A stretch of DNA of 64,000 nt, taken from assembly GCA_961205875.1 (NCBI GenBank), contig OY540815.1, positions 13,949,638 to 14,013,637 of the forward strand, in the 5' to 3' direction. The notes beneath the pieces are model-generated. The model did no database searches. It was given only the letters and a program-made list of their open reading frames with translations, and was not told the origin of the DNA. Made by a program: the position numbers and the translations under genes. The stretch comes from Sialis fuliginosa (taxonomy: Eukaryota > Arthropoda > Insecta > Megaloptera > Sialidae). Numbering within the stretch: the first letter of the stretch is position 1; every line of letters starts with the position of its first letter. Below are positions 11,646 through 63,525 of this stretch, piece by piece.

Positions 11646-11804
11646 ATTATTCGGTTTTATTCCGCGTTGCACTTTAATGTCTTACACATGTTAGCAAACG
11701 TCAACACCTTCTGGACTCGACACTTCACTTCTGAAAAAGACCACGAGATGCTGGTCAAAATGTCAAGTGACATTAAAGTACAATGCGGAATAAACCCCAA
11801 TAAT
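11646..11804. mobile_element. short foldback MITE with ATTATT ends
   Basis: The left arm ATTATTCGG...TTTATTCCGC followed by GCACTTTAATGTC is mirrored at the right by GACATTAAAGT...GCGGAATAAA...AATAAT. The arms are about 40 bp with a loop of about 80 bp. Overlapping open frames on both strands (112 and 77 codons) are explained by this structure, so I do not call a gene. Confidence 0.6.
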
Positions 11805-11809
11805 AAAAA

Positions 11810-29011: not shown

Positions 29012-32000
29012 ATGAAGCATTTATTATTTCTCTTATTGTTTTCTTCGGTATTCATTTCAAGAACCGAATCATTTTGTCATCGAAAAATTCCTAAAATTCA
29101 TTGTCAGGAGACTTTTCTCGAAGAAATTAATTCTCTGAATGGAAAGGTAAATAACTTTATTTAATAAATTTAAATATTTTTTTAATAGATCAACAAACAT
29201 TATTCAATTTATTTAACAAAAGTATCGTTGAATTTATTTTTGATATACACGTTTGGATAAAACTCGTATCATATAAATTATTTCTAATATACATTTAAAT
29301 GAATAATGTTTTTTAACGCATTTATAAAATACAGGTTGCACTTTTTTACAATTAGTTTTTATTTACTTATCACCATGTATATTATTTCCAGGAGGAATGT
29401 AGACTTTTGTCAGCATCATTCATAGATGGTACAATTCTTCCAAACAATGCTTTTCTATACCCAAATCTAAATGAATTAGAAATTAGAAATGTCAATGGAA
29501 TGGCTTTATCTGTTTTTCGAAATCTTCCAGTTTTAATCAATCTTTATATATCTGACAGTGAGGTGAGTATATTTTTTAACTATTTAAATACCTACTTATT
29601 TATGCTTGGTGGCAAAATCGCAAAATTTTCTTTGTTTCAATTGTTTCAATAAATAACAATTATTCCTAATGACAAAAATTAGTGTCATTGTCGGAAAAGC
29701 CCTTAATTTCACAAAAAATGTTAAGTGTTTGACGTTAAAAAAATATTGCTGGAAAGTTTTGACTCACGTAGTCATCTATATACTACATACCACAATTTCT
29801 ACGGCGCGACAAATTTTAATTTCGTTTAGTGTTATGTACAGAATATGCCGCTACCGACATCACAACTATCAAATACAATCAAATATCACGTGTTGATGTG
29901 TTAAAATAGACCTAACCAAACCTAACCTAACGAAAACTAACCAATCCAAAACTATTCAACTCGATTTCACCCCAATAGATTGCCCTAAAAACTTTAAGGA
30001 ACACAAAACAAACATACATACATATATTATTATACGCCTTTGCCGCATCAATAAAATATCTGACAGGACTAGACAATATGGCGATTAAATTTAAGTGTCA
30101 TTTTCAAAAAATAAAATACTATTTCTAGATTACTGGTAGGTTTTTATAAATCCTCCCCCCCTTTTCGTAATGTAGGTGTTCTAAAGAATATAATAATATG
30201 ATTTAATATATGATTTTGGAATATTTCAATCAGTGGAAGTCATAATGCCAAGGTCCAGCGGTACCTACTATTCCCTTACAAAGATTTATCTCAGTTTACT
30301 TTAATAAATCGTGTTTTTTTTTATTGTCAAAAAATGAAAAATATACGAAAAAATAATCAGGTGCGTCTTATGAAAAATTTCGAACTAATATTTTTTAGTA
30401 AAATTGTATAAAAATTAAATGGTTAACCAATGGCCGGCAATTTATCCGTTTTTATTTAAATTTTTTAATAACTCACTACCTTTGGTCAATTTAGTACGAG
30501 GAAGCATTGTGCATTTATTTGACAGATGTTTTTTTATTGTCAACATCAAAACTAAAATATACTAAAAGCCAATAATATTATTTCAGTTGACCAATTATAA
30601 AGCCCACGACAACTGTAGAAGTTACTGCGATGCATTCCCTGTTGGATACTTCTACAAACAACAGTATTTAAGAAAACTACATTTAACCAACAACAACATC
30701 AACACATTCTTCGTCGGAGCTCTTGACGGAGTTCCAATTTTGCAAGAGCTATCGTTATCAAACAACAAAATAATCAACATATTCAACGGGGTTTTTGATA
30801 CTCTGATTCATCTGCAAAGACTTGACCTTAGTTACAATCTAATCGAAGGACTCGGTGATATCATTTTAAACTCAACTGTTCATCTTCAGGAATTTAACAT
30901 TGCTCATAACCAGATCTTGGCTCTACCTGATTACGTATTTGCACCAGTCATACATTTACAAAAACTCAACATATCTACAAACCTCATTAGAGGATTACAT
31001 TTTGAAGTATTCTTCCCATTAGTCAATTTACAAAAATTAGACTTGTCAAAAAATCTACTTTACAATTTACCTGATGTTTTATTCAATACATTAGTCAATT
31101 TACAAGAACTGTACTTATCGGGAAATCTTATAAATGGATTGCCTAATAATATTGTAAGAAATTTGGTAAATTTACAAATATTAGATTTTTCTAGAAATAA
31201 TATTAGAGGTCTTCCGGATAATATATTTAATACATTGACTATGTTACAAAAATTGGATTTAAGTAACAACCAAATTGAATCTCTCCCCGATAGTTCATTT
31301 ACTAACTTAACTGCTTTAGATTGGTTAGATTTATCAGATAATAAACTAGCATCACTTCCAGATAACATTTTTAAAGATTTATCAAATTTAGTGTATTTGA
31401 ATCTATCACACAATAGATTTTTAACTTTATCAAAAACTGCGTTTAACTATTTACATCGACTGCAAGAATTAGATTTGTCAAATAATAACATCTCTCTGTC
31501 TGGACCAATATTCAATAATGATAAATCAGATCTTAAATATTTAAATTTAGCTGGAAATTCGCTTACGAATTTACCGATTGATTCGTTTAATAATTTATAC
31601 AATTTAGAAGTTTTAGATATTTCTAATAATATGATCACAAGTATCCCCGATCAGTTATTCAAAAATTTGAATAAATTGAAAAAAATTATACTAGCTAATA
31701 ACAATATAATTAATGTACCTAATATACGTAATGTATTACCGAGTTTGGAAAGCTTAGATCTATCTAATAATTATATAGAACACATTGAAAGAATGTTTGA
31801 AAATCACCAAACATTGAAAGAAATTAAACTTAGTGGAAATTCACTACAAACTATACATTCTAACAATTTTGATGGTACGACTGAATTGATTAATCTCCAT
31901 CTAGATAACAATGTACTGTTTTATATTGAAAAAAATACATTTAAAAATTCTGCTGTGAAATATTTAGATATTTCTAGTAACAGCCTCACTTCTTTAGATC

Positions 32001-32275
32001 CGTCAGTTATAATTAATTCTAGAATAAGAAAAATCAGCATCAGTAATAATCCATGGCAATGTGCTTGTTTGTTAAATGAAATAACTGAAGCTCTTACTAC
32101 CAAAAATGTCAAACATACATTAGATGATTTTTTCAAAGGAAAAGCGCCAAGTTGTCTAGTGTATGAAAGTACATGTGTACAAAACACAGAAATTGTAAGT
32201 GATTTATACAGTAAATATAAAAACTCTCTAGAAACATACAGCACACTACCACACATTAAAAAATACAAGCATTAA
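29012..32275 (+). CDS. secreted leucine-rich repeat protein, three coding exons
   Basis: Coding exons are 29012-29146, 29392-29562 and 30587-32275, joined in phase 0 by GT-AG introns of 245 and 1024 bp, giving 664 residues. Residues 1-20 form a hydrophobic signal peptide (MKHLLFLLLFSSVF...). Cysteines at 22, 31 and 48 suggest an N-terminal cap. From about residue 71 to 589 there are about 20 repeats of roughly 24 residues with the LxxLxLxxNxI pattern. Residues from 590 form a C-terminal cap starting NPWQCAC with two further cysteines. No membrane span or GPI-type tail follows; the protein ends in a basic HIKKYKH. It should be an extracellular binding protein, but the ligand is unknown. Repeat 2 contains an extra segment with C112 and C116 at the exon 2/3 joint. 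Mosquito LRIM/APL1 proteins, chaoptin-like proteins and Toll ectodomains share this architecture, but I see no feature that picks one. Opposite-strand frames here are shadows. Confidence 0.9.
30276..30532 (-). repeat. copy of the 9.5 kb foldback centre inside intron 2
   Basis: Reverse-complemented, it follows 9815-10055. Shared words include AAATGCACA, TTGGTTAACCATTTAATTTT, ATATTAGTTCGAAA and GATAAATCTTTGTAAGGGAA. The arms of the foldback are missing, so only the centre is represented. It ends about 55 bp before the exon 3 acceptor. Confidence 0.75.
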
Positions 32276-32459: not shown

Positions 32460-34693
32460 ACATTCAGACGGATTTGATTTAATTTAACAGAACTAACAAA
32501 TATTTCCACAAGTACATTAAAAAGAAAATAGGTAAATACTGAATGTAGTTAGATTTAATCTACGTTTAAACCACGACAAACATTTTCTTGCGAATGAAAC
32601 CTCAAACAAAACCATTTACCTGTAAAGTTTGTAGACTTTCCCAACTGACAAGATAAGATATATAGACCCATTCCCGTCCTTAATAAATTTTGAAGTTTCT
32701 AACTATTTATAAGATATTATATAGAAGATAGTATGTACGGTAACAATGTTATCAAATAGAAAGAACTTCATATAAATATGTGGATGAATGAAAGTAAGTT
32801 TTTGTAAGAAGTTTTAAAAAACGCACCTCTTGGAATATTTATATTGATGTTGATACAACATTTCTAAGAATGTTAACGAAAGTAGGTACGTTTAAAGATC
32901 TTAGTTATCCAGCATAAATTGTTCTTGTAATCGAAAAAATGTTAATAATATAAAAAAATAATAAATACGAATAAATAAATAAATACTTTAAACAAATACG
33001 TACCTATTAAATTTTAACTATACCTAATATTGGCCTAGCACCCCGAAAGTTGTGAATTATCCGTATTTTTTTCAATTAAAAAAAAGATTTGATGTCGAAA
33101 AGTTTAGTTTTTAATTTATACATATGCAGAACACATGTACATTTAATAGAATGTTTTTATTTATTATAATTATGTATGTATATTTTACCAACTCGCTATC
33201 TCTTTTCTACAGTACATTAGACTATATCTTTAATATATACTATGGCCTCGCCAACTGTAATTTGTTGCACTTGCACACGTTGTTTGTAAGTCGTATTCTA
33301 TTACTTTTACGGATGCGTCTTTACCAACGCTGTCATGGCAGAGTGTTATCTTACTAGTTTGTCATTACTTTGAATAAATCTGGTTCTGAAACTATACGTG
33401 AATGTATGTGTTTTATAATTTTTATAGTATTTAAAAGGGTTGAAGTTTCGAATAATCAGTTTTTAAAACGTCTCTGTATAGAATTTCAATAAATAGAGCG
33501 CTTCCGGCGAGTTTTCTCATTTACCATGTATTACTCTATTTTTAATATCCAATTACTCAAAAACCATAGTCCAATATTAAAAAAAAAATAGTAAAATATA
33601 TGAGCTATCCATAAATAATATATTAAATTTTTAGACTTTTATCTATAAATTACTCTGACGATTAAATAACCTTAAGAATGTTAATTTCGAGTATTTTACT
33701 TGGGTATACCTACTTGGATAATTGAAAAGTTAGCTTTCATAGAAATTTGATTGTACTAGATAAAGATGCAAATACGTAATACTATTATTATATATTGTGT
33801 GAAGCGTGTCTTCTCTCTCTATTATTGTAACTGTATACATATTTCATGAGGCAACTCTAACAATTTTGCTTTACATGTACTATAAGCAAGAACTATAACA
33901 CGGTACTATAATAACGCAAGTTGTAATTTTGTGGTTTAAGATACATTGTTCATTGAAAATGTTTTTCATGCTATAAATTTACATTGTGCGGTATGCTATT
34001 TTCAGTGTTAATGAATTGAAATATGTATTTATTAAAATATTAATAAATCTTACAGCACTTCGCAAGAGTTTAATTTTTTATGGTAAGCTTTAATGATACA
34101 GTGGTGTCTTTTTGGTAGTATTTACGGCCAATACTTTACAATAATTTTGTGAACAATATATACAGTATACACACAATAAACTTTTTTTTTGTTTTTAAGT
34201 TAAATACAAAATTTCTAGAGCGACCCTTGGTTTTCTTAAGACAACTAATCTTAAACATTGTTATCTGTATTGTTCCTATAACAGGGACATGAAATAGATT
34301 TTAATTATCTTTATAAACGTCGCTGACAAGAAATATTTACTCCTTTACAATTCATCAAAGGAATCAACTTGCAAAGTTTCGTTTCAAACAATTAATTGTA
34401 TAATTAGATATTCCACTACGGATTATTCCAACTTTGAGTCGCTTGTTATCTTTTATATTTCACAATAATAGAATATAATCATGCTTTTATTTAAAATTTG
34501 TAAGTTATGTCAAAATTTTAATACTCATTTTGATGTTTATTCAAATTTACGTATTATTTTATGGCAAAATTCAGGAAATTCTGTAAATATTAATTAATCT
34601 TATTACACAAAAAGATGATAACGAGAAAATAGTAATACGGATATATCACAAGTTCTCTAAATTTTAATAAGTATTATTTAAGGTATTACATAG
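32460..34693. other. intergenic, nothing recognised
   Basis: AT-rich DNA with no supported gene. A 77-codon frame at 33124-33357 lacks any recognisable feature. No repeat shared with the rest of the window was noticed. Confidence 0.5.
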
Positions 34694-34971
34694 AAACTAA
34701 AAAAAAATCAAGAGTAAGTTTCAATTTTGTAAATAAATATAAAATGATTTCAAAATCCTGAAATGATTCACCATCTATGAGCAAAGATATCGTTAAAATA
34801 AAATCAATAAATTTAAGCATTGGCGGGCATATATACTCGCAATGTTAGATTTATTGATTTTATTTTGACGATATCTGTGCTTATAGATGGAGAATCATTT
34901 CAGGATTTTGAATGGAGCTTTTTATAATTTTAGTTATTTACAAAATTTGAGCTTACCCTTGACTTTAGTTT
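34694..34971. mobile_element. foldback MITE with AAACTAAA ends
   Basis: Arms of about 120 bp are inverted copies: AAACTAA, TCAAGAGTAAG, ATTTTGTAAATAA, TCCTGAAATGATTC and AAAATAAAATCAATAAAT on the left, with the reverse complements on the right around a short loop at about 34825. The ends read AAACTAAA and TTTAGTTT. There is no coding capacity and no other copy in the window. Confidence 0.75.
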
Positions 34972-35175
34972 TATTTCGTGCAATATTTCACTTTTTCTAT
35001 CATATAGCGAACCTTGTTGCTCGTCGAGAAATACCTTAATATCTAACTATGTATATAAACAAACATGTATGTGTATATAAAAAAACAACAATTTGTAAAA
35101 AATGTTAAAAATGTACACTATTGTTTTACTCTTAAAATAATAGATACCAATAAAAATATGCATTCATTTACCACA

Positions 35176-38281: not shown

Positions 38282-38668
38282 AAAAAATATCTGCCTTGGG
38301 AACCACGGGACTTTCTTATACCTAACCTAACCTAACAGTGAATTGTATACGTGATTCTTTGTTTATTAAAACATTTCTAACAAACTAACAAGAAAGAACA
38401 AAATGAATAATTTTATATTTATATAACAAGTGATTTTTTTTAACGTAATAACTGAAAACGGATGTTTACTCTTGTAAATTTTTGGATTTTTTTATGTAAT
38501 TATTTAGATTCACCTACACAGTTCACTCTCAGTATTACGTATAAGAAAGTCCCATGTAACCTACGGCAAATACACACACTGTTCAATCTCTGTAATACGT
38601 ATAAGAAAGTCCCATGACACTCATGGCAGATATTTCTCCTCTGTTATGAACCATTTGAATTATAATCT
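38282..38668. repeat. repeat block with three copies of the 40-bp motif
   Basis: 38282-38322 carries the motif on one strand (ATATCTGCC...CTTTCTTATA). 38534-38570 and 38595-38635 carry it in the opposite orientation as a direct pair about 60 bp apart. From about 38435 to 38668 the block matches 57062-57436 in reverse, apart from about 120 extra bases in that copy. CCTAACCTAACCTAAC interrupts the first motif copy. Confidence 0.6.
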
Positions 38669-39416: not shown

Positions 39417-40259
39417 TCGTCTTTGATTGCTTGCGAATTATGTTTTTATGATGACGAGATGAAAAAATTCAAATAAAATATTTATAACTAAGTGCTGTTA
39501 TACTTTATCATACTTCATTGGAGTGTTTTGCGGTTGTTAAGACTTGTCGCGTAAAAATTGTATTTTAACTTCTTATGGCGTGTTCACACCGAAAAAACAA
39601 AACACGAACATCGTGTCTTTTAGACAAAATGTCAACAAATTTTAAAAACAGAGTGTTCACACCGAAAAAACACTCGAAAAACGACAAAACAGGAACATGT
39701 TTTCACGGACAAAATTGCAACTTTTTACCAACATTTCGCCAACAAGACCTCATTAAGGGGATAACAAAATATAAACATGTCATTTTTGGCGTTTACACCA
39801 ACAAAAACAAAACAGCAACATATTTTGATTGACATTTTAACAACATGTAATAAAACAGACCCTTAGTATCGGATAGATTTGTACAAAAAAGACACTGTTT
39901 TTGTTATCCATCTCATATGGAAAACAAATTGTGTTTTTTATTTTATATTGGAGAAATACGTACTATTTTCAACCGTTGAGTTATCAGTTTTTTGATAGTA
40001 TCAAAATAAAACTAGTAATTACATTTTTAATAACTTATAAAATATAACGCAGTAACAAAATCCATCAACAAATTTTAATTATCTAATTCAGTAATTGATT
40101 AATTAATTAAATACTAAATAATAATAACCTTAACATTAGAAAACATTTCAAAGTTTATTATTATTAATAATTTAATAAAATATTTTCTATAAAGGAAATT
40201 TAATATATTATTATATTATTTATATGTATATGTTGTATAAATATTTTATATAATTACTT

Positions 40260-41730
40260 ATAGAGCAAGAGCCCGTGAGTGCCAGACCTTCGGATTTTTA
40301 TAAAAGCTGAAAGTTCTTCTATGTGTGTCCCTAGTACAGGTAAGAATGATCCCCACTCATGAAGCTGAGGCAGCGGTGGCTTTGGCAGGTAACAGGTAAC
40401 AAAGGTGTGTAAAATTCCATCTCAAATTCATCATGAAATAAAACTGAATTTTTTTATATTTGATTCATAATAATATCAAAACTCGCGTTACTCATTGCCA
40501 GACAGTTAGTATGGTTACAACCCTCTGCCGGACACCCCTAAACTATTATAATTTATAATTATACTTACGTTATATTATAAAACCTAAATTTTATATATAA
40601 TTTTTTGGGAGCCTATTAAACTATGTTTACATAGTAGCCGGACAGTTTCGAAGGTTCTATCATCTTGCCAGACGCATTCAAAGTGAGCAGTAATCGGGAG
40701 AGCAAGGAGCGTATACAGTAACTAGTGCGAGTGAAACAGAGCGCTTGGTCTATTGCGGCCCTTCACTGCGCATCAGCTGCTGTTTATTGTAATCATTTGG
40801 TGAACGGTTATGCTCATAATAAACGTATTATTTTTCTGTGCAGTTTATAAAATATGGATATATTGACGATAACGATGAAAATGATGAAAATATTTAGATT
40901 TAATTAAAATAAATGAATTTCTCTGTAAATTTCTTATCTAAAAAAAATGTGTCCTTTGGTTTAATAAACAATAAAATTTGATTTACTTTGATTCATTGGC
41001 TTTATAATTTTAATAGCATTGAAAATAATAAACTTCTTAAAAATGAAAAATAATATCAATTAAATTATTAGATTTTCGACATGATTGACATTGTATTAGA
41101 AAAATTTAACTGAGTATTATTTTAAATATTTGTTATTCAAACTGTAAAAATTTATTTAATGAAATTTCTGGATTAAGAAAAAAATAAACTGCACAATTTG
41201 AAATTAATAACAGTGGATGCACAGTGAAGGGCCGCAATAGACCAAGCGCTCTGTTTCACTCGCACTAGTTACTGTATACGCTCCTTGCTCTCCCTATTAC
41301 TGCTCAATTTGAATGCGTCTGGCAAGATGATAGAACCTTCGAAACTGTCCGGCTACTATGTAAACATAGTTTAATAGGCTCCCAAAAAATTATATATAAA
41401 ATTTAGGTTTTATAATATAACGTAAGTATAATTATAAATTATAATAGTTTAGGGGTGTCCGGCAGAGGGTTGTAACCATACTAACTGTCTGGCAATGAGC
41501 AACGCGAGTTTTGATATTATTATGAATCAAATATAAAAAAATTCAGTTTTATTTCATGATGAATTTGAGATGGAATTTTACACACCTTTGTTACCTGTTA
41601 CCTGCCAAAGCCACCGCTGCCTCAGCTTCATGAGTGGGGATCATTCTTACCTGTACTAGGGACACACATAGAAGAACTTTCAGCTTTTATAAAAATCCGA
41701 AGGTCTGGCACTCACTGGCTCTTGGACTAT
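40260..41730. mobile_element. large palindromic foldback, two 515-bp arms
   Basis: 40260-40774 and 41216-41730 are inverted copies of equal length with only a handful of differences by eye. They start ATAG..CAAGAGCC and end GGCTCTTG..CTAT. The 441-bp loop is AT-rich. The arms contain the repeated CAGGTAACAGGTAACA, several GCCGGACA/GCCAGAC words and an inner GC-rich part with GGTCTATTGCGGCC. No frame is open across the arms. Equal lengths and few changes point to a recent origin or gene-conversion between the arms. Confidence 0.85.
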
Positions 41731-42549
41731 TATATTATATTTTAAATAATTATAATATATAATATGTAAGTACTATAAAGTTTACCAGAGACTCACGACT
41801 CTTTTATTATTATTAAACGGTGAGAGATATTTAAAAAAATGTATAAACAAATTTCAGTTAAAAAAAATGATGTATAATTTTAATTGATGTAAATAGTTCT
41901 AATAGATTTTCAAATAAAAATTTAACACTTTATAGGTGTCCTAAAATTCACTGTTAAATACCTGCTACGTTTCCGAAATCGGTTAGTTTTCAAATAGGAG
42001 TACAGATGGTTTATGATTTATTATTCATTTGTATGCATATACAAATGAATTTGTCTCAACCGTAGATCAGTGTTTCTTAACCGTTTTATGCTCCCAAATA
42101 TCTTTTAATACATATTAAAATAATTTGCAGAATATTTGCTTTTTTCTCTTACCAAAAATATAAATTCACCTGATATAGTAAATATAAATAACTTTTTTGC
42201 TTAGTTTCTTTATTACGCTCATTGAAAGAAAATAATATTAACATATTATTTTATTTTAAACCATTAAGATGGCAATGACATTGCATTAACATAAATATAC
42301 TTATATGGTATATTAATTTTAATTTATATAAGATATTAAAAAAAAAAGATATTCAAATTTTAAATATTGAAAAATCAAAACTAATTAACTAAATACTTTT
42401 TAAAATACTATAATATATCATGCACGTGCAGAGTATAGAAAAAATGTATTGTTAAAATATTATTACACATAGGCAATAAATCAACCTTTTCTCAGTTTAT
42501 ATTTCTATAGATGTATATGACAATACAGGGGTGTACAATCAGTACAATA

Positions 42550-44132: not shown

Positions 44133-46392
44133 CCAATACTCCATTACGATAAATTTTCTCATTTAAAAAAAGTAAATTTAAAAATACATATATATTTATA
44201 CACCCCAACCATCGATAAGACCTAGAACCTCTGGAAAAGCCATAAGAAAGAAAACATACCTATTGGATTAAAAAGATATTAAAATCAATCATTTGAATAT
44301 AGCTACTTTTGTTAAATGCTCCACGCCCCACCACATCGGGTTTGGGATTTTATGAAAAGCTTTCAATTTTGTTTTCAAAATGATCGGAAGTTCGTGTATG
44401 ATTGAAAGGTAAACGCGTTTCCGCTCCCATTTCCCTCTGAACTCAATACCTATATTTGATTTTATTCATGGCTCAGATGAAGACATAATGGGAAGAAGTC
44501 AGGAATTTTTTATCCGGCTTTCGAATCGGAATTCAAAATGATGTTGGCAAATTTACGATGGGAAATACTATTTGAAAGACGAGATATTTATTTTAAATAT
44601 CGAACTCGTTAAGATGTTATGTTTATATTTATAAATAGCAATTTACCGGAGTGTATGAAATTGAAAGAAAGAATAGATTTATCAAAATGTATGAATTTAT
44701 TTCTTACATTATTTGAAAAAAAAACTCGAACGAAATATTTCAAGTATGATTACGTCAAGAAATTTGCTTTTAAATAAAATGAAATTTTTGTAAATACAAT
44801 GAATAAATGAAACCAATAAATGCATCAACATTTGTTCCATCATTATGTTACTATTAAATATAGAATAAAGATAAAACATAGTAGGTACCTACATTGTTTA
44901 GAAGTCAAAAATCATTCATTGTATCAACAGCATTCTTTTACACTTATTACAACAATTTCAAAATGTCTGTGAAATAACAATATCAATAGTGCAAGTAACT
45001 GCATCAACAATAGCTTTATATTTGTACATTGTAGTTCGTTCTCTGACAGACGGATTGAGAAACTGTTGTAGATACATAACATATAACTGAACACCTACAT
45101 ACACGATTACTGTTTATCGTAAATATATTCACATTTTTATGTACATGTATGAAAAATATCTGTCGAGATAAAGATATTTACAATCGTTTGTGTCGACTAC
45201 CAATAAATTATATAATATTTCGAGGAGAAAGGATTTTTGAAACAGTTTATTATAAAGGTCTGCATAGACAAAAACAATAGGAGAAAAATATTTTTTTCCA
45301 ATGTCTAAAAGAACTTGGCTTAAACTGTATTTTCGTAAAAAAATCTGGAAATGGCCTTATTCATTTTTATGTTAAAATAAGAACATCCTGACTAAAAAAA
45401 TTTGCTTGAACAAAAATACAAATCACCTGCTTAACATTTGTTTTATAAATCTTATAATAATAAAATATATTTTTTTTACTCTTAACGTTTGTACCAATGA
45501 AAATTGGAAAATATAGATAATTCAATTTTATTTTATAAAAATTAAATTTACAAAATAACATCCAACACATGTTTTCTTGCGCAACGCTGGAAAATTGTAG
45601 TCATTTTAATTGCATCTTCCAATACTTGATCTAACATGTACATATATTAATATTTCGGCCATTTTTGCTCAAATGTTGGTTAAAAGTCACTTCAGAGTTT
45701 CTAGTTTGTTTACATAAACTGATATTTTAAAATTAATTTTGCTTGGAAAGACGTCATAGTTTCTCTTACTGTGTGTGTTGTCCTACCATCCTGATTCTTG
45801 ATCCATCATATTAGAACTAAAACTAAAACTAATCTAGATTTCCTACTTCATTCTGGAAAAATTATGCCTCCAACCACAGACCATGCCACATCATTTCTTT
45901 TATGAGCATTGGTTTCATGTAAATATTTTTGGTGTTTTCAGTTCCCAGAACTTACATATATTTATTTATAGATCCACTCATCAGTTGGTGGAGTTTAATT
46001 AACATATCGTAATCAAAATTCTGTTTGTGTAGTAATTATTGAATTATTTCTTGCGTATAGCAATACGATTTGGGCTCGTTATTGCAGTGTGTACCTACTC
46101 TCGATACTAAAATTTTTCGAGTTAACAATAAATTTTAAAAAATATAGACAAAATAAGTAGAGTGACTTATTATGCCCCACTATAAAGACGATAATATATA
46201 ATACATATATACAATTTCAGTATCCGACATAATTTAAAATATGTTTGTTGTACATTGTACATATATAGAAGAGCTGTTATGTTACATATTCAATGTTATA
46301 CATATAATTAATTATATGATGATAAACTAAAAAATATTGTACATTTTTGCTAATAGATACCTCTGAAAACATTGTTCACGAATGTTAACAAG
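44133..46392. other. intergenic, nothing firm
   Basis: AT-rich DNA. A slightly GC-richer, unique patch lies at 44320-44560 but has no usable frame. No gene, RNA or repeat was recognised up to the satellite edge. Confidence 0.5.
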
Positions 46393-46405
46393 ATGCAATT
46401 AAGGG
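46393..46405 (+). repeat. left 13-bp flank of the satellite
   Basis: ATGCAATTAAGGG directly precedes the first TTAA of the array. Its exact reverse complement CCCTTAATTGCAT follows the last TTAA at 56904-56916. Confidence 0.8.
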
Positions 46406-49400
46406 TTAAGAGCATCACGCACTTAAAGACCTTCGCGTGCTACTTCCCTTTTTAAAAACAAGTTAAAACTAAAAAAACAAATAAAAACTCATACGCTAAC
46501 AAAGAAGTAAATTGAATAGTTAATATCTCAGCTTGGTGCGATCGAGGAGACTCCAATTTTTTTTTTAAATGTAGCTTACACTATTATCTTTAAGAGCATC
46601 ACGCACTTAAAGACCTTCGCGTGCTCCTTCCCTTTTTAAAAACAAGTTAAAACTAAAAAAAAACAAATTAAAACTCATACGCTAACAAAGAAGTAAATTG
46701 AATAGTTAATATCTCAGCTTGGCGCGATCGAAGAGACTCCAGTTTTTTTTTTAAATGTAGCTTACACTATTATCTTTAAGAGCATCACGCACTTAAAGAC
46801 CTTCGCGTGCTCCTTCCCTTTTTAAAAACAAGTTAAAACTAAAAAAACAAATTAAAACTCATACGCTAACAAAGAAGTAAATTGAATAGTTAATATCTCA
46901 GCTTGGCGCGATCGAAGAGACTCCAGTTTTTTTTAAAATGTAGCTTACACTATTATCTTTAAGAGCATCACGCACTTAAAGACCTTCGCGTGCTCCTTCC
47001 CTTTTTAAAAACAAGTTAAAACTAAAAAAACAAATTAAAAATCATACGCTTACAAAGAAGTAAATTGAATAGTTAATATCTCAGCTTGGCGCGATCGAAG
47101 AGACTCCAGTTTTTTTTTAAATGTAGCTTACACTATTATCTTTAAGAGCATCACGCACTTAAAGACCTTCGCGTACTCCTTCCCTTTTTAAAAACAAGTT
47201 AAAACTAAAAAAACAAATTAAAACTCATACGCTAACAAAGAAGTAAATTGAATAGTTAATATCTCAGCTTGGCGCGATCGAAGAGACTCCAGTATTTTTT
47301 TTAAATGTAGCTTACACTATTATCTTTAAGAGCATCACGCACTTAAAGACCTTCGCGTGCTCCTTCCCTTTTTAAAAACAAGTTAAAACTAAAAAAACAA
47401 ATTAAAAATCATACGCTTACAAAGAAGTAAATTGAATAGTTAATATCTCAGCTTGGCGCGATCGAAGAGACTCCAGTTTTTTTTTAAATGTAGCTTACAC
47501 TATTATCTTTAAGAGCATCACGCACTTAAAGACCTTCGCGTGCTCCTTCCCTTTTTAAAAACAAGTTAAAACTAAAAAAAACAAATTAAAAATCATACGC
47601 TAACAAAGAAGTAAATTGAATAGTTAATATCTCAGCTTGGCGCGATCGAAGAGACTCCAGTTTTTTTTTTTAAATGTAGCTTACACTATTATCTTTAAGA
47701 GCATCACGCACTTAAAGACCTTCGCGTGCTCCTTCCCTTTTTAAAAACAAGTTAAAACTAAAAAAAACAAATTAAAAATCATACGCTAACAAAGAAGTAA
47801 ATTGAATAGTTAATATCTCAGCTTGGCGCGATCGAAGAGACTCCAGTTTTTTTTTTTAAATGTAGCTTACACTATTATCTTTAAGAGCATCACGCACTTA
47901 AAGACCTTCGCGTGCTACTTCCCTTTTTAAAAACAAGTTAAAACTAAAAAAACAAATAAAAACTCATACGCTAACAAAGAAGTAAATTGAATAGTTAATA
48001 TCTCAGCTTGGCGCGATCGAAGAGACTCCAGTTTTTTTTTTAAATGTAGCTTACACTATTATCTTTAAGAGCATCACGCACTTAAAGACCTTCGCGTGCT
48101 CTTTCCCTTTTTTAAAACAAGTTAAAACTAAAAAAACAAATTAAAACTCATACGCTAACAAAGAAGTAAATTGAATAGTTAATATCTCAGCTTGGTGCGA
48201 TCGAGGAGACTCCAGTTTTTTTTTTAAATGTAGCTTACACTATTATCTTTAAGAGCATCACGCACTTAAAGACCTTCGCGTGCTCCTTCCCTTTTTAAAA
48301 ACAAGTTAAAACTAAAAAAACAAATTAAAACTCATACGCTAACAAAGAAGTAAATTGAATAGTTAATATCTCAGCTTGGTGCGATCGAGGAGACTCCAGT
48401 TTTTTTTTTAAATGTAGCTTACACTATTATCTTTAAGAGCATCACGCACTTAAAGACCTTCGCGTGCTCCTTCCCTTTTTAAAAACAAGTTAAAACTAAA
48501 AAAACAAATTAAAAATCATACGCTTACAAAGAAGTAAATTGAATAGTTAATATCTCAGCTTGGCGCGATCGAAGAGACTCCAGTTTTTTTTTTAAATGTA
48601 GCTTACACTATTATCTTTAAGAGCATCACGCACTTAAAGACCTTCGCGTGCTCCTTCCCTTTTTAAAAACAAGTTAAAACTAAAAAAACAAATTAAAACT
48701 CATACGCTAACAAAGAAGTAAATTGAATAGTTAATATCTCAGCTTGGCGCGATCGAAGAGACTCCAGTTTTTTTTTAAATGTAGCTTACACTATTATCTT
48801 TAAGAGCATCACGCACTTAAAGACCTTCGCGTGCTCCTTCCCTTTTTAAAAACAAGTTAAAACTAAAAAAACAAATTAAAACTCATACGCTAACAAAGAA
48901 GTAAATTGAATAGTTAATATCTCAGCTTGGCGCGATCGAAGAGACTCCAGTTTTTTTTTTTAAATGTAGCTTACACTATTATCTTTAAGAGCATCACGCA
49001 CTTAAAGACCTTCGCGTGCTCCTTCCCTTTTTAAAAACAAGTTAAAACTAAAAAAACAAATTAAAACTCATACGCTAACAAAGAAGTAAATTGAATAGTT
49101 AATATCTCAGCTTGGCGCGATCGAAGAGACTCCAGTTTTTTTTTTAAATGTAGCTTACACTATTATCTTTAAGAGCATCACGCACTTAAAGACCTTCGCG
49201 TGCTCCTTCCCTTTTTAAAAACAAGTTAAAACTAAAAAAACAAATTAAAAATCATACGCTTACAAAGAAGTAAATTGAATAGTTAATATCTCAGCTTGGC
49301 GCGATCGAAGAGACTCCAGTTTTTTTTTTAAATGTAGCTTACACTATTATCTTTAAGAGCATCACGCACTTAAAGACCTTCGCGTGCTCTTTCCCTTTTT

Positions 49401-52400
49401 TAAAACAAGTTAAAACTAAAAAAACAAATTAAAACTCATACGCTAACAAAGAAGTAAATTGAATAGTTAATATCTCAGCTTGGTGCGATCGAGGAGACTC
49501 CAGTTTTTTTTTTAAATGTAGCTTACACTATTATCTTTAAGAGCATCACGCACTTAAAGACCTTCGCGTGCTCCTTCCCTTTTTAAAAACAAGTTAAAAC
49601 TAAAAAAACAAATTAAAACTCATACGCTAACAAAGAAGTAAATTGAATAGTTAATATCTCAGCTTGGCGCGATCGAAGAGACTCCAGTTTTTTTTTTAAA
49701 TGTAGCTTACACTATTATCTTTAAGAGCATCACGCACTTAAAGACCTTCGCGTGCTCCTTCCCTTTTTAAAAACAAGTTAAAACTAAAAAAACAAACTAA
49801 AAATCATACGCTTACAAAGAAGTAAATTGAATAGTTAATATCTCAGCTTGGCGCGATCGAAGAGACTCCAGTTTTTTTTTTAAATGTAGCTTACACTATT
49901 ATCTTTAAGAGCATCACGCACTTAAAGACCTTCGCGTGCTCTTTCCCTTTTTTAAAACAAGTTAAAACTAAAAAAACAAATTAAAACTCATACGCTAACA
50001 AAGAAGTAAATTGAATAGTTAATATCTCAGCTTGGTGCGATCGAGGAGACTCCAGTTTTTTTTTTAAATGTAGCTTACACTATTATCTTTAAGAGCATCA
50101 CGCACTTAAAGACCTTCGCGTGCTCCTTCCCTTTTTAAAAACAAGTTAAAACTAAAAAAACAAATTAAAACTCATACGCTAACAAAGAAGTAAATTGAAT
50201 AGTTAATATCTCAGCTTGGCGCGATCGAAGAGACTCCAGTTTTTTTTTAAAATGTAGCTTACACTATTATCTTTAAGAGCATCACGCACTTAAAGACCTT
50301 CGCGTGCTCCTTCCCTTTTTAAAAACAAGTTAAAACTAAAAAAACAAATTAAAACTCATACGCTAACAAAGAAGTAAATTGAATAGTTAATATCTCAGCT
50401 TGGCGCGATCGAAGAGACTCCAGTTTTTTTTTAAAATGTAGCTTACACTATTATCTTTAAGAGCATCACGCACTTAAAGACCTTCGCGTGCTCCTTCCCT
50501 TTTTAAAAACAAGTTAAAACTAAAAAAACAAATTAAAAATCATACGCTTACAAAGAAGTAAATTGAATAGTTAATATCTCAGCTTGGCGCGATCGAAGAG
50601 ACTCCAGTTTTTTTTTTAAATGTAGCTTACACTATTATCTTTAAGAGCATCACGCACTTAAAGACCTTCGCGTGCTCCTTCCCTTTTTAAAAACAAGTTA
50701 AAACTAAAAAAACAAATTAAAACTCATACGCTAACAAAGAAGTAAATTGAATAGTTAATATCTCAGCTTGGCGCGATCGAAGAGACTCCAGTTTTTTTTT
50801 TAAATGTAGCTTACACTATTATCTTTAAGAGCATCACGCACTTAAAGACCTTCGCGTGCTCCTTCCCTTTTTAAAAACAAGTTAAAACTAAAAAAACAAA
50901 TTAAAACTCATACGCTAACAAAGAAGTAAATTGAATAGTTAATATCTCAGCTTGGCGCGATCGAAGAGACTCCAGTTTTTTTTTTTAAATGTAGCTTACA
51001 CTATTATCTTTAAGAGCATCACGCACTTAAAGACCTTCGCGTGCTCCTTCCCTTTTTAAAAACAAGTTAAAACTAAAAAAACAAATTAAAACTCATACGC
51101 TAACAAAGAAGTAAATTGAATAGTTAATATCTCAGCTTGGCGCGATCGAAGAGACTCCAGTTTTTTTTTAAAATGTAGCTTACACTATTATCTTTAAGAG
51201 CATCACGCACTTAAAGACCTTCGCGTGCTCCTTCCCTTTTTAAAAACAAGTTAAAACTAAAAAAACAAATTAAAAATCATACGCTTACAAAGAAGTAAAT
51301 TGAATAGTTAATATCTCAGCTTGGCGCGATCGAAGAGACTCCAGTTTTTTTTTTAAATGTAGCTTACACTATTATCTTTAAGAGCATCACGCACTTAAAG
51401 ACCTTCGCGTGCTCTTTCCCTTTTTTAAAACAAGTTAAAACTAAAAAAACAAATTAAAACTCATACGCTAACAAAGAAGTAAATTGAATAGTTAATATCT
51501 CAGCTTGGTGCGATCGAGGAGACTCCAGTTTTTTTTTTAAATGTAGCTTACACTATTATCTTTAAGAGCATCACGCACTTAAAGACCTTCGCGTGCTCCT
51601 TCCCTTTTTAAAAACAAGTTAAAACTAAAAAAACAAATTAAAACTCATACGCTAACAAAGAAGTAAATTGAATAGTTAATATCTCAGCTTGGCGCGATCG
51701 AAGAGACTCCAGTTTTTTTTTAAAATGTAGCTTACACTATTATCTTTAAGAGCATCACGCACTTAAAGACCTTCGCGTGCTCCTTCCCTTTTTAAAAACA
51801 AGTTAAAACTAAAAAAACAAATTAAAACTCATACGCTAACAAAGAAGTAAATTGAATAGTTAATATCTCAGCTTGGCGCGATCGAAGAGACTCCAGTTTT
51901 TTTTTAAAATGTAGCTTACACTATTATCTTTAAGAGCATCACGCACTTAAAGACCTTCGCGTGCTCCTTCCCTTTTTAAAAACAAGTTAAAACTAAAAAA
52001 ACAAATTAAAAATCATACGCTTACAAAGAAGTAAATTGAATAGTTAATATCTCAGCTTGGCGCGATCGAAGAGACTCCAGTTTTTTTTTTAAATGTAGCT
52101 TACACTATTATCTTTAAGAGCATCACGCACTTAAAGACCTTCGCGTGCTCCTTCCCTTTTTAAAAACAAGTTAAAACTAAAAAAACAAATAAAAACTCAT
52201 ACGCTAACAAAGAAGTAAATTGAATAGTTAATATCTCAGCTTGGCGCGATCGAAGAGACTCCAGTTTTTTTTTTAAATGTAGCTTACACTATTATCTTTA
52301 AGAGCATCACGCACTTAAAGACCTTCGCGTGCTCCTTCCCTTTTTAAAAACAAGTTAAAACTAAAAAAACAAATTAAAACTCATACGCTAACAAAGAAGT

Positions 52401-55400
52401 AAATTGAATAGTTAATATCTCAGCTTGGCGCGATCGAAGAGACTCCAGTTTTTTTTTTAAATGTAGCTTACACTATTATCTTTAAGAGCATCACGCACTT
52501 AAAGACCTTCGCGTGCTCCTTCCCTTTTTAAAAACAAGTTAAAACTAAAAAAACAAATTAAAACTCATACGCTAACAAAGAAGTAAATTGAATAGTTAAT
52601 ATCTCAGCTTGGCGCGATCGAAGAGACTCCAGTTTTTTTTTAAAATGTAGCTTACACTATTATCTTTAAGAGCATCACGCACTTAAAGACCTTCGCGTAC
52701 TCCTTCCCTTTTTAAAAACAAGTTAAAACTAAAAAAACAAATTAAAACTCATACGCTAACAAAGAAGTAAATTGAATAGTTAATATCTCAGCTTGGCGCG
52801 ATCGAAGAGACTCCAGTTTTTTTTTTAAATGTAGCTTACACTATTATCTTTAAGAGCATCACGCACTTAAAGACCTTCGCGTACTCCTTCCCTTTTTAAA
52901 AACAAGTTAAAACTAAAAAAACAAATTAAAACTCATACGCTAACAAAGAAGTAAATTGAATAGTTAATATCTCAGCTTGGCGCGATCGAAGAGACTCCAG
53001 TATTTTTTTTAAATGTAGCTTACACTATTATCTTTAAGAGCATCACGCACTTAAAGACCTTCGCGTACTCCTTCCCTTTTTAAAAACAAGTTAAAACTAA
53101 AAAAACAAATTAAAACTCATACGCTAACAAAGAAGTAAATTGAATAGTTAATATCTCAGCTTGGCGCGATCGAAGAGACTCCAGTATTTTTTTTAAATGT
53201 AGCTTACACTATTATCTTTAAGAGCATCACGCACTTAAAGACCTTCGCGTGCTCCTTCCCTTTTTAAAAACAAGTTAAAACTAAAAAAACAAATTAAAAA
53301 TCATACGCTTACAAAGAAGTAAATTGAATAGTTAATATCTCAGCTTGGCGCGATCGAAGAGACTCCAGTTTTTTTTTTAAATGTAGCTTACACTATTATC
53401 TTTAAGAGCATCACGCACTTAAAGACCTTCGCGTGCTCCTTCCCTTTTTAAAAACAAGTTAAAACTAAAAAAACAAATTAAAACTCATACGCTAACAAAG
53501 AAGTAAATTGAATAGTTAATATCTCAGCTTGGCGCGATCGAAGAGACTCCAGTTTTTTTTTAAAATGTAGCTTACACTATTATCTTTAAGAGCATCACGC
53601 ACTTAAAGACCTTCGCGTGCTCCTTCCCTTTTTAAAAACAAGTTAAAACTAAAAAAACAAATTAAAAATCATACGCTTACAAAGAAGTAAATTGAATAGT
53701 TAATATCTCAGCTTGGCGCGATCGAAGAGACTCCAGTTTTTTTTTTAAATGTAGCTTACACTATTATCTTTAAGAGCATCACGCACTTAAAGACCTTCGC
53801 GTGCTCCTTCCCTTTTTAAAAACAAGTTAAAACTAAAAAAACAAATTAAAACTCATACGCTAACAAAGAAGTAAATTGAATAGTTAATATCTCAGCTTGG
53901 CGCGATCGAAGAGACTCCAGTTTTTTTTTTAAATGTAGCTTACACTATTATCTTTAAGAGCATCACGCACTTAAAGACCTTCGCGTGCTCCTTCCCTTTT
54001 TAAAAACAAGTTAAAACTAAAAAAACAAATTAAAACTCATACGCTAACAAAGAAGTAAATTGAATAGTTAATATCTCAGCTTGGCGCGATCGAAGAGACT
54101 CCAGTTTTTTTTTTTAAATGTAGCTTACACTATTATCTTTAAGAGCATCACGCACTTAAAGACCTTCGCGTGCTCCTTCCCTTTTTAAAAACAAGTTAAA
54201 ACTAAAAAAACAAATTAAAACTCATACGCTAACAAAGAAGTAAATTGAATAGTTAATATCTCAGCTTGGCGCGATCGAAGAGACTCCAGTTTTTTTTTAA
54301 AATGTAGCTTACACTATTATCTTTAAGAGCATCACGCACTTAAAGACCTTCGCGTGCTCCTTCCCTTTTTAAAAACAAGTTAAAACTAAAAAAACAAATT
54401 AAAAATCATACGCTTACAAAGAAGTAAATTGAATAGTTAATATCTCAGCTTGGCGCGATCGAAGAGACTCCAGTTTTTTTTTTAAATGTAGCTTACACTA
54501 TTATCTTTAAGAGCATCACGCACTTAAAGACCTTCGCGTGCTCTTTCCCTTTTTTAAAACAAGTTAAAACTAAAAAAACAAATTAAAACTCATACGCTAA
54601 CAAAGAAGTAAATTGAATAGTTAATATCTCAGCTTGGTGCGATCGAGGAGACTCCAGTTTTTTTTTTAAATGTAGCTTACACTATTATCTTTAAGAGCAT
54701 CACGCACTTAAAGACCTTCGCGTGCTCCTTCCCTTTTTAAAAACAAGTTAAAACTAAAAAAACAAATTAAAACTCATACGCTAACAAAGAAGTAAATTGA
54801 ATAGTTAATATCTCAGCTTGGCGCGATCGAAGAGACTCCAGTTTTTTTTTAAAATGTAGCTTACACTATTATCTTTAAGAGCATCACGCACTTAAAGACC
54901 TTCGCGTGCTCCTTCCCTTTTTAAAAACAAGTTAAAACTAAAAAAACAAATTAAAACTCATACGCTAACAAAGAAGTAAATTGAATAGTTAATATCTCAG
55001 CTTGGCGCGATCGAAGAGACTCCAGTTTTTTTTTAAAATGTAGCTTACACTATTATCTTTAAGAGCATCACGCACTTAAAGACCTTCGCGTGCTCCTTCC
55101 CTTTTTAAAAACAAGTTAAAACTAAAAAAACAAATTAAAAATCATACGCTTACAAAGAAGTAAATTGAATAGTTAATATCTCAGCTTGGCGCGATCGAAG
55201 AGACTCCAGTTTTTTTTTTAAATGTAGCTTACACTATTATCTTTAAGAGCATCACGCACTTAAAGACCTTCGCGTGCTCCTTCCCTTTTTAAAAACAAGT
55301 TAAAACTAAAAAAACAAATTAAAACTCATACGCTAACAAAGAAGTAAATTGAATAGTTAATATCTCAGCTTGGCGCGATCGAAGAGACTCCAGTTTTTTT

Positions 55401-56903
55401 TTTAAATGTAGCTTACACTATTATCTTTAAGAGCATCACGCACTTAAAGACCTTCGCGTGCTCCTTCCCTTTTTAAAAACAAGTTAAAACTAAAAAAACA
55501 AATTAAAACTCATACGCTAACAAAGAAGTAAATTGAATAGTTAATATCTCAGCTTGGCGCGATCGAAGAGACTCCAGTTTTTTTTTTAAATGTAGCTTAC
55601 ACTATTATCTTTAAGAGCATCACGCACTTAAAGACCTTCGCGTGCTCCTTCCCTTTTTAAAAACAAGTTAAAACTAAAAAAACAAATTAAAACTCATACG
55701 CTAACAAAGAAGTAAATTGAATAGTTAATATCTCAGCTTGGCGCGATCGAAGAGACTCCAGTTTTTTTTTAAAATGTAGCTTACACTATTATCTTTAAGA
55801 GCATCACGCACTTAAAGACCTTCGCGTACTCCTTCCCTTTTTAAAAACAAGTTAAAACTAAAAAAACAAATTAAAACTCATACGCTAACAAAGAAGTAAA
55901 TTGAATAGTTAATATCTCAGCTTGGCGCGATCGAAGAGACTCCAGTTTTTTTTTTAAATGTAGCTTACACTATTATCTTTAAGAGCATCACGCACTTAAA
56001 GACCTTCGCGTACTCCTTCCCTTTTTAAAAACAAGTTAAAACTAAAAAAACAAATTAAAACTCATACGCTAACAAAGAAGTAAATTGAATAGTTAATATC
56101 TCAGCTTGGCGCGATCGAAGAGACTCCAGTATTTTTTTTAAATGTAGCTTACACTATTATCTTTAAGAGCATCACGCACTTAAAGACCTTCGCGTGCTCC
56201 TTCCCTTTTTAAAAACAAGTTAAAACTAAAAAAACAAATTAAAAATCATACGCTTACAAAGAAGTAAATTGAATAGTTAATATCTCAGCTTGGCGCGATC
56301 GAAGAGACTCCAGTTTTTTTTTTAAATGTAGCTTACACTATTATCTTTAAGAGCATCACGCACTTAAAGACCTTCGCGTGCTCCTTCCCTTTTTAAAAAC
56401 AAGTTAAAACTAAAAAAACAAATTAAAACTCATACGCTAACAAAGAAGTAAATTGAATAGTTAATATCTCAGCTTGGCGCGATCGAAGAGACTCCAGTTT
56501 TTTTTTTAAATGTAGCTTACACTATTATCTTTAAGAGCATCACGCACTTAAAGACCTTCGCGTGCTCTTTCCCTTTTTTAAAACAAGTTAAAACTAAAAA
56601 AAACAAATTAAAACTCATACGCTAACAAAGAAGTAAATTGAATAGTTAATATCTCAGCTTGGTGCGATCGAGGAGACTCCAGTTTTTTTTTTAAATGTAG
56701 CTTACACTATTATCTTTAAGAGCATCACGCACTTAAAGACTTTCGCGTGCTCCTTCCTTTTTTAAAAACAAGTTAAAACTAAAAAAACAAATTAAAACTC
56801 ATACGCTAACAAAGAAGTAAATTGAATAGTTAATATCTCAACTTGGCGCGATCGAGGAGACTCCAGTTTTTTTTTTAAATGTAGCTTACACTATTATCTT
56901 TAA
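46406..56903 (+). repeat. satellite array, about 57 units of about 184 bp
   Basis: Head-to-tail units run from TTAA-GAGCATCACGCAC to ACTATTATCT before the next TTAA. Unit lengths I measured are 183-186 bp, differing mainly in the T run after GACTCCAG. Total length 10.5 kb corresponds to a whole number of units. Conserved landmarks are CCTTCGCGTGCTCCTTCCC, CATACGCTAACAAAGAAG and CTTGGCGCGATCGAAGAG. Recurrent variants are GCTTACAAAG for GCTAACAAAG, GTGCTCTTTCCC with GGTGCGATCGAGG, and GTACTCC for GTGCTCC. The edge units (first and last) are the most divergent, as expected for arrays kept uniform by unequal exchange. No frame of note is open. Confidence 0.97.
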
Positions 56904-56916
56904 CCCTTAATTGCAT
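56904..56916 (-). repeat. right 13-bp flank of the satellite
   Basis: CCCTTAATTGCAT is the exact reverse complement of 46393-46405, so with the shared TTAA the array is bracketed by a 17-bp inverted repeat. Confidence 0.8.
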
Positions 56917-57045
56917 GATTTTTTTTATTTTAACGAAATATTAATTTTTTGAAGCAGAAGTAGGCTAGATTTAAGGGAAAAATAGTAAAAAAAATCTTTT
57001 TTTGAAAATAAAAGTTTATTTCATTTTTTTGACTTTGTAAACAAA

Positions 57046-57436
57046 TGTTAACGTCATGCAATTTTATTATAATTCAAATGGTTCATAACAGAGGAGAAAT
57101 ATCTGCCATGAGTGTCATGGGACTTTCTTATACGTAGTACAGAGATTAAACAGTGTGCTTCTTTGCCATAGGTACCATGGGACTTTCTTATACGTAATAC
57201 TGATAGTGAACAGTGTAGGTGAATCTAAATAATTACATAAAAAATTTCTTTCTGGCTAAATTATAAATGTTGGAAAAAAATGTATAGGGAATTAATTATA
57301 GATAATAACATACTCGACATTTTTTATCTAAAACATTTTTTCTTAATTCAAAAATAATTCGTTAATTCAAAAATTTACAAGAGTAAACATCTGATTTCAG
57401 TTATTACGTTAAAAAAAATCACTTGTTATATAATGG
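57046..57436. repeat. repeat block, inverted partner of 38.4-38.7 kb
   Basis: 57062-57436 matches 38435-38668 in reverse orientation. It includes two copies of the 40-bp motif (57098-57137 and 57162-57197) and the tail word AGTGATTTTTTTTAACG read in reverse. An extra 120 bp at about 57245-57365 is absent from the other copy. At its left edge AATGTTAACGTCATGCAATT closely resembles the sequence just left of the satellite (46382-46400). Confidence 0.65.
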
Positions 57437-61140: not shown

Positions 61141-62874
61141 TTCATTACCTCTCATGTTGTAATCAAACTACATCTACCTATAAAACGGATCCTTTTGTCC
61201 ACGCGCATGCACTTACTTATATGTTCGTGCACCTTTATTATTAACTCACCTTTTTATATTGTTTATTTGTAAGAATTGATTTTATAAACTTTATTTATTT
61301 CAAAGTTTTCTTTCTTTCCTTAAATTTTTTCTCTTTTTCGGTAATACAGCGTAATAGCGAAAAAAATTGTATATTTACATTTAAAACCGTAGAAGGGATA
61401 ATAGCTTTACATTATAATAAATTTAATTTCACTGCTCTAAAATCCAGATCAAAATCATAACGATTTGACACCTCACAGAAAGCAAGATAAAATTCTTTAT
61501 ATAACTGGAAAGATCGAGATAACTCGTTCTGTATCAAAATAATCGAATGTATATCAGTTGAGAATCTATTAGATGAAAATTACCCATTATTGTTGTGTAG
61601 AAACATAACATAAATGTTATTGCTGGTTTCTTACTGGTTTGAGAATTCCTCGAATTGCTCAATTCGAATCTGTTCAAATTTTGATAGTGTTGAACATAGT
61701 ATTGAAACTAGCATGACCCTTATATAGGGTGACCAGATTTTAGTTTTGGTAAACCCTGAGATGTAAATGAAGACCCATTTTTTATAAACATATTGTTCTG
61801 AAAAAACCATCAATATGCCAATTATAATATACCGTGCCGTATACACAAAGAAGTATCTACATAATTAATTTAAAAATTGTAACTCTGAGAACTTTTTATA
61901 AACAAAACAAACATAGAAATAGTTTCGATAATATTTTACATGTGGAAACGTATTTAATGAAATAGCTCATAGAGTAGCTAACTAATTAATAAATTCCAGT
62001 CAAAGCATATAAAGTAAACACTTAGGTATAAGTAATTAAAATGATTGATTTTTCATCACGTTTGTACATTTAGTTTTAAACAGTTGATTGTTATCGATTT
62101 TATTGTGATTTATCTAAATTGTTTTATTTATGACAGTAATTTTCTTATAAGAAATATTTCACATGCAATTTGAAAATAACATTCCGATGTGTGACACGAT
62201 AGCATTTTAATATATACTTATCGTAAAAATATATAGCATTCAAATATTTTTCATTATATTAATAAATTGACGTGTTTTTCATATTAGATATACATGAACG
62301 CAGACATTTTTCGTTTAATTTTATTTATTTATATTACAACACTGGCTTTTACTGACAGTTTTATCTATATAACCCTAACTAATTCTAGCTTGTCTAATTA
62401 TAAGAGTAAAAGTTTAATCAAAATCGGTTCAGTATCTTTAAAAATTTAATTACTCAGAACAAACAGCAGACAGATAAAAACTCTTGGTCGAAGTAAGCTC
62501 TATTATTTTTTATGCATTAAAGCACATGTGGACAGTGAGAGCCACTCGGATGCATTTCCGTTGTTTTCAGTTAGTCAATTATTCAAAGTGCACAACGTTC
62601 TCAATTACACTTGTTAAATATTTAAAGTGTTAAGTATCAATGGTGCTTCAATGTCTAAATATACATAATACACTCGATAGTGTCCATTAGATATTTGCAT
62701 TCAACAGTATCCAGGTAATTGTGCACTAATACTAGTTAATTATAGAGGATAATTGATATTGTACTTCTGTGTTTGGTATATACACAAAATATAAAAGTCA
62801 TTATACTAAACTTTGTTTATAAATTCAATGAAATTTAAATCGACTTTAACAATAATCTATAAACCTAAGAAATT
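61141..62874. other. intergenic with retroposon scraps
   Basis: AT-rich. ATAGGGTGACCAGATTTT at 61725 looks like a transposon end without a partner. At 62415-62480 AAAATCGGTTCAGTA followed by AGCAGACAGATA resembles a retroposon tail. No gene. Confidence 0.4.
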
Positions 62875-63121
62875 CACTTTTGACTTCGGCCAAGAAATCC
62901 TTGTTTTATATAGGTATTTATAACAAAAACAATATTTTCTTAATATTAGCATATATTCTTAATACAAATATTATATTATTGTTTTCGTCCGACAAAATTG
63001 CTTTCAAGAAAAACAATAATATAATATGTAGTTGGATTAAGAGTATATTCTTATATTAGGAAAAAAATTGTTTTCGTTATATTAGTATAAAACAAAAATT
63101 TCTTGGCCCAAGTCCAAGGTG
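62875..63121. mobile_element. foldback MITE with CAC..GTG ends
   Basis: Arms of about 110 bp are inverted copies. The left has GACTTCGGCCAAGAAAT, TTGTTTTATA, ACAATATT and ATTATATTATTGTTTT; the right has the reverse complements, ending TTTCTTGGCCCAAGTCCAAG. The short centre holds TCGTCCGACAAAATTG. There is no coding content. Confidence 0.7.
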
Positions 63122-63174
63122 TATAAAGACAAGATAGTCTCATCAGCTCCTAGACCAATCAGCGATAGCGTAGG

Positions 63175-63525
63175 AATTGACGTCACCACGAAGACATATT
63201 CAAATGTTGGAAATGTATAATAGAATATCAATTATAAAAAATCCTTTATTTATTCTTGTTTTCGTATTTTTTGATATTTTAACAACACATACAATAAAAA
63301 AAGTACACATTCGACATTGCAAAATCATAAAAAAGCTGTCACAGACAATTTGGTCTATTCGATTCTAACAGCTTTTTATGATTTTTCAATGTCGAATGTG
63401 TACTTCTTTGATTGTATGTGTTGTTAAAATATCAAAAAATACGAAAACAAGAATAAATAAATAATTTTTTTTAATTGATATTCTATTATACATTTCTAAC
63501 ATTTGAATATGTCTTCGTCAATTTT
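63175..63525. mobile_element. foldback MITE with 160-bp arms
   Basis: Left arm words CGAAGACATATTCAAATGTT, AGAATATCAATT, TCTTGTTTTCGTATTTTTTG, TTAACAACACATACAAT, GTACACATTCGACATTG and ATCATAAAAAAGCTGT are all mirrored on the right around a loop of about 30 bp at 63340-63366. The left end has about seven extra bases (GTCACCA) compared with the right. Arms are nearly identical, suggesting a fairly young element. A 63-codon frame here is a by-product. Confidence 0.8.

Follow-up and report, generated by a model that had tools for sequence, protein, structure and literature searches.

A TTAA-framed satellite array between exact inverted arms in Sialis fuliginosa and its possible growth inside a small inverted-repeat element

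The analysed window (64,000 nucleotides of contig OY540815.1) is AT-rich (GC 24–33% in 2-kb steps) and contains a 10.5-kb array of near-identical 184-base repeats, enclosed by short inverted arms (Table 1). Besides the array, we found a single clear coding stretch, for a leucine-rich-repeat protein (30566–32275; 569 codons without a stop; Pfam LRR_8, E 1.3e-78; 8 of 33 frames scanned), and tRNA and Rfam searches returned no matches in the window. None of the window's 33 stop-to-stop frames of at least 80 aa lies inside the array, and the Pfam scan of 8 of these 33 frames matched only LRR, in one frame, with no transposase match. A non-autonomous element would have no transposase gene. The right flank carries an interspersed repeat (57066–57433) with a second copy on the other strand at 38419–38666 (94–96% identity); the copy beside the array contains 119 bp more (57245–57363), and the repeat carries a repeated motif around GGGACTTTCTTATACGTA, with related copies at 23625 and 24604. 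TTAAGGG(G) followed by A-rich sequence, perhaps marking the ends of another TTAA-associated repeat family, occurs at 56971 (+), which is 54 bp beyond the right arm, and also at 7304 (−) and 39753 (+). Also present in the window are at least five MITE-like repeats that are near-palindromic and 126–331 bp long (63188–63518, 34693–34977, 62872–63124, 852–977, and 11635–11815), an inverted pair of ~578 bp with 95% identity (40211–40788 and 41202–41778), and a candidate Kolobok- or MITE-like element of ~350 bp that is bounded by TTAA and whose inverted tips are imperfect (TTAAGGGGTTACATCTAAT / TTAAGGGGTTTCATTTAAT; 25934–26282).

Table 1 Positions of the array, its inverted arms, and the units discussed in the text, numbered from the first base of the window.
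Feature	Position	Strand	Remark
Satellite array	46406–56903	+	57 units of ~184 bp, each starting TTAAGAGC, plus closing TTAA 56900–56903
Left inverted arm ATGCAATTAAGGG	46393–46405	+	End of left flank
Right inverted arm (CCCTTAATTGCAT on + strand)	56904–56916	-	Exact reverse complement of left arm
Outer TTAA, left; candidate target-site duplication of GGG-tipped element	46399–46402	.	Partner 56907–56910
Outer TTAA, right	56907–56910	.	Partner of 46399–46402
Units 22–31, 10-unit block	50273–52113	+	Variant order identical to units 39–48
Units 39–48, second copy of 10-unit block	53402–55242	+	17 units downstream
Unit 57, last unit	56716–56899	+	3 of the array's 6 private variants

TRF reported one array over exactly the interval given in Table 1, with a period of 184, 57.0 copies, and 98% matches. 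When the array was split into units, all 57 started with TTAAGAGCATCA, unit length ranged from 183 to 186 bases (184 in 46 of the 57), and the last unit was followed by a single TTAA and then by the right flank. Based on a mean pairwise identity of 98.3% among the 57 units (minimum 95.7%), this is the long, homogeneous tandem array expected of a satellite. The unit contains seven TTAA sites. A strong hairpin in the unit was considered and rejected (z −1.60 for the first 41 bases, with equal folding in 13 of 200 shuffles; z 0.63 for 141 bases). Relatives of the sequence were looked for in several collections: three unit/arm patterns had no exact match in the viral collection, the region 46393–46600 had no match among phages, and the unit sequence, taken as 6 pieces, did not occur in the text of the openly licensed papers searched. 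A 20-base match in a Lachnospiraceae genome was attributed to chance, its surroundings not continuing the unit. A relationship between the unit and other parts of the window was also rejected (the best among the matches listed had E 0.02 and was AT-rich), and the left flank had no match in the window at E 1e-4.

Coded by their variants, including variants of homopolymer length, the units follow the order ABCDEDFFGHIJKLMJHMNHOOJMLOJHOOJPMOQEEJOJMLOJHOOJMMOQEJMRS. In 2,000 shuffles of this order, no repeated block exceeded 6 units, compared to the 10 observed (Table 1), and unit-pair matches were most frequent at lag 17 (14 of 40), followed by lag 4 (11 of 53) and lag 8 (10 of 49). A block of ~17 units was thus probably duplicated within the array, and because the 10-unit block recurs at offset 17, array growth appears to have been block-wise. 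Five of the six private variants are located in edge units (units 1 and 2 carry one each, that of unit 2 being an extra A in an A-run, and unit 57 carries three), and the sixth lies in unit 19. The array edges are therefore less homogenised than the interior, and weaker homogenisation at satellite edges is often reported (PMC5139131).

The inverted arms adjoin the first and last TTAA directly and are exact over 13 bp, or over 17 bp with TTAA; the self-complementary TTAA belongs to the satellite and accounts for 4 of these 17 bp, which leaves 13 bp as the independent inverted part. Together with the common start of all units, this confirmed the description given by the sequence-only reading, that of a TTAA-to-TTAA array within a 17-bp inverted repeat, and such arms match the terminal inverted repeats expected of a MITE/TIR element that bears tandem repeats. 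On the outside, the inverted match is broken at the next base beyond the arms; on the inside, it ends with TTAA and does not extend into the core. With a complementarity rate of 0.297 per single position at random window points, 13 complementary positions in a row at two fixed edges have a probability of about 1.4e-7, and the longest complementary run in 400,000 random point pairs was 12, seen once. The significance of the arms depends on their position exactly at the array edges: an unanchored comparison of the 300-bp flanks gave a best inverted score of 13 (+1/−1, mismatches allowed), a value reached or exceeded by 88 of 300 shuffled pairs. The exact 13-mer does not occur elsewhere in the window (46 kb to the left and 7 kb to the right of the array), nor does any match within 1 mismatch, whereas matches within 2 mismatches are found at three places (the two arms and 29700–29712), with 2.27 expected from shuffles. 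By eye, the candidate target-site duplications are TTAA and AT, beyond which the next flanking bases differ; both are self-complementary, and they would therefore resemble target duplications under any history. The flanks also share a direct 25/32 match (46369–46400 vs 57032–57063), ending in ATGCAATT, with a score that one of 300 shuffled pairs equalled; being a post hoc find and lying away from the right arm, it was not used as a longer target duplication.

The whole number of units had previously been taken as an argument for a transposon, and this argument fails, since in-register unequal exchange shifts copy number by whole units. By reasoning, tandem duplication between two short direct repeats gives the form repeat-(core-repeat)n, and subsequent in-register exchange gains or loses whole units with the outer edges unchanged. 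Unequal exchange from a duplicated start thus predicts an array such as this one, with 57 units plus 4 bp, and transposition is not needed to produce it. The same reasoning gives an identical form for a unit circle that is joined at a single TTAA.

Our preferred reading, which we consider plausible and hold tentatively, is that the array is an expansion inside a short, non-coding, MITE-like inverted-repeat element and grew by block-wise exchange. The ancestor would have been an element of ~214 bp, an ordinary size for a MITE, with one 180-bp core between ATGCAATTAAGGG-TTAA and TTAA-CCCTTAATTGCAT. TTAA reads the same on both strands, so the inner 4 bp of each arm double as a 4-bp direct repeat around the core, and the first tandem copy may have arisen by slippage or microhomology-mediated repair between these TTAA repeats. 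In-register unequal exchange of multi-unit blocks would then have enlarged the array to 57 units, while the outer arms stayed put. We infer the role of the arms as mobile-element ends, the one-unit ancestor, and the first duplication step; the exact 13-bp arms at both fixed edges are observed, the 57 units plus TTAA are as duplication between 4-bp direct repeats predicts, the repeated block at offset 17 points to block-wise growth, and the concentration of private variants in edge units is expected if edges are less homogenised. Xmix, miDNA4, and Tetris are precedents. Against the preferred reading, the window holds no second copy of the arm above chance, the candidate target duplications arise by construction, the inverted match reaches no further than TTAA and does not enter the core, and inverted flank matches of equal score are common if position is left free. 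Growth from a single TTAA-bounded unit between inverted ends, as the sequence-only reading had suggested, fits best and is retained, without the whole-unit and piggyBac arguments that had accompanied it.

The main rival is that an older, perfect 30-bp palindrome, ATGCAATTAAGGG-TTAA-CCCTTAATTGCAT (ATGCAATTAAGGGTTAACCCTTAATTGCAT), received the satellite at its central TTAA, perhaps as an excised whole-unit circle; such a site would be fragile and hairpin-forming, and its arms would be unrelated to a transposon. A circle joined at one TTAA automatically gives whole units and one extra TTAA, so that edges, whole units, and arms would be explained in one step; the joined arms fold into a perfect hairpin with a 13-bp stem, and palindromes are reported at satellite junctions in a mollusc and a parasitic wasp (PMC5139131). 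This history is possible, yet we regard it as rather doubtful, given that it requires a rare pre-existing site (counting palindromes centred on TTAA, perfect complementary arms of at least 8 bp occur at 0 of the 788 TTAA sites outside the array, and arms of 7 bp at 2), that the choice of one among seven TTAA sites in the unit is left unexplained, and that the number of private variants in unit 57, the largest in the array, speaks against a very fresh junction. A further rival, which appears unlikely, is a Kolobok-like element with TTAA as its target and GGG tips, in which the outer TTAA is the target duplication, the array grew inside, and the outermost 6 bp belong to a palindromic target (ATGCAA-[TTAA]-GGGTTAA...TTAACCC-[TTAA]-TTGCAT). 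GGG does lie inward of the outer TTAA on both sides, and the element at 25934–26282 would be a second TTAA-bounded candidate, there with GGGG tips; however, the 6-bp outer palindrome needs chance (about 7e-4) or target preference, and the TTAA duplication is present by construction. A tip common to the array arms and the element at 25934 was rejected, since the similarity did not exceed controls (score of 20 or more in 18.6% of 2,000). Three outer limits can accordingly be drawn: the whole arm as TIR, an outer TTAA target with a GGG tip, or a 30-bp palindrome split by the array. Sequence alone cannot choose among them, given the self-complementarity of AT and of both TTAA copies in the arms. 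We moderately prefer the whole arm as TIR, because under the GGG-tip limit 6 bp must be put down to chance or to a preferred target and because the palindrome needs a site that the 788 other TTAA sites in the window do not approach. Under either of the two element limits (whole arm or GGG tip), the inner TTAA serves as inverted and direct repeat alike, from which the first duplication could start.

It had also been proposed that the whole 10.5-kb array moved as the cargo of a TIR transposon, with TTAA next to CCC recalling piggyBac. The support for such a move is limited to the arms, which enclose the array exactly; no independent target-site duplication was seen, no second copy was found in the window, the most private variants lie in an end unit, and the tips are oriented in reverse of piggyBac, all of which makes cargo transport very unlikely. 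In piggyBac elements, the tips read TTAA-CCC inward, and in beetles CCCT is the 5' motif found most often, together with TTAA duplications (PMC12732532). The locus shares with this family a TTAA adjoining CCCTT, but here TTAA-CCCTT reads outward from both edges, so that an array carried as cargo would have TTAA-GGG tips. The CCC pattern is thus present and points away from the array on both sides, and the array therefore does not qualify as piggyBac cargo in the normal orientation. An array lying between two piggyBac elements was likewise rejected, as far tips adjoining TTAA were not found in the window (no arm match with up to 1 mismatch); the 2-mismatch match at 29700–29712 has an orientation that would fit a left element, lacks a preceding TTAA (tip at -29706), and is at chance level. 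Finally, the edges may be an assembly artefact of a collapsed or expanded array. A 10.5-kb array with 98% identity is hard to assemble, its copy number may be wrong, and the unit variants include differences in homopolymer length. Nevertheless, the edge units differ between the two edges, misassembly does not explain exact inverted arms unless one flank was mirrored, and the flanks beyond the arms show no inverted match above shuffles, making an artefact highly improbable.

Satellite birth is mostly inferred from old, eroded arrays, whereas the exact edges, inverted arms, and whole units of this locus may record a starting structure, and its origin thereby becomes testable: one-unit elements or an empty palindrome are predicted in related genomes. 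A self-complementary inner TIR end such as TTAA would let a core duplicate in tandem without further homology, and it is conceivable, although we would bet against it, that this constitutes a general route from transposon to satellite. If true, elements that end in TTAA would be prone to turn into satellites whose edges are exactly framed. In those parts of the openly licensed literature covered by our search, we did not find it stated that a self-complementary TIR end seeds duplication.

Satellite expansion inside MITE or foldback elements has been described for Xmix/Xstir, miDNA4, Tetris, and pearl elements, and the array is probably a member of this described kind. The locus is treated as a candidate, since such elements are defined by dispersed copies, of which the window showed none above chance, and by a target duplication, for which all candidates seen are self-complementary. 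Among the closest known systems is Xmix/Xstir of Xenopus (a T2-MITE of Kolobok type), a TTAA-target inverted-repeat element with a tandemly amplified internal segment; Xmix is a predominant MITE family with a TTAA target, an AGGRR tip motif, and amplified internal Xstir (PMC6004289, PMC12628747), whereas a single locus is present here, with no second copy in the window and with putative tips. Kolobok itself has a TTAA target and an RR tip (PMC6004289), and would fit if the outer TTAA were the target followed by a GGG tip, with TTAA duplicated by construction in our case. In Xenopus tropicalis, the Tc1/mariner MITE miDNA4 contains its satellite as a single monomer or an array, flanked by short AT-rich direct repeats of at least 5 bp for which microhomology is proposed (PMC12628747). 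The core of our array similarly lies between short direct repeats, except that the inverted arms themselves would supply the direct repeat, as their 4-bp self-complementary end. Tetris of Drosophila virilis, a foldback element with 8–10 bp target duplications, carries TIR-220 satellite arrays that expanded within the element to as many as 66 copies, the repeats lying within long TIRs (PMC4079207), whereas the array described here fills all the space between 13-bp arms. Coincidence of array edges with a palindrome is shared with the mollusc satellite phBglII400, in which a 12-bp palindrome holds 13 of 16 breakpoints and a 10-bp palindrome the remaining ones, and with a parasitic wasp in which palindromes occur at junctions between satellite arrays (PMC5139131); the phBglII400 palindrome is part of the satellite monomer, whereas ours is formed by the two flanks. 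If the element reading is right, the locus works like Xmix/Xstir, miDNA4, Tetris, and pearl elements, and what may be new is its exact frame, in which the array occupies everything between the arms and has their self-complementary end in common with them.
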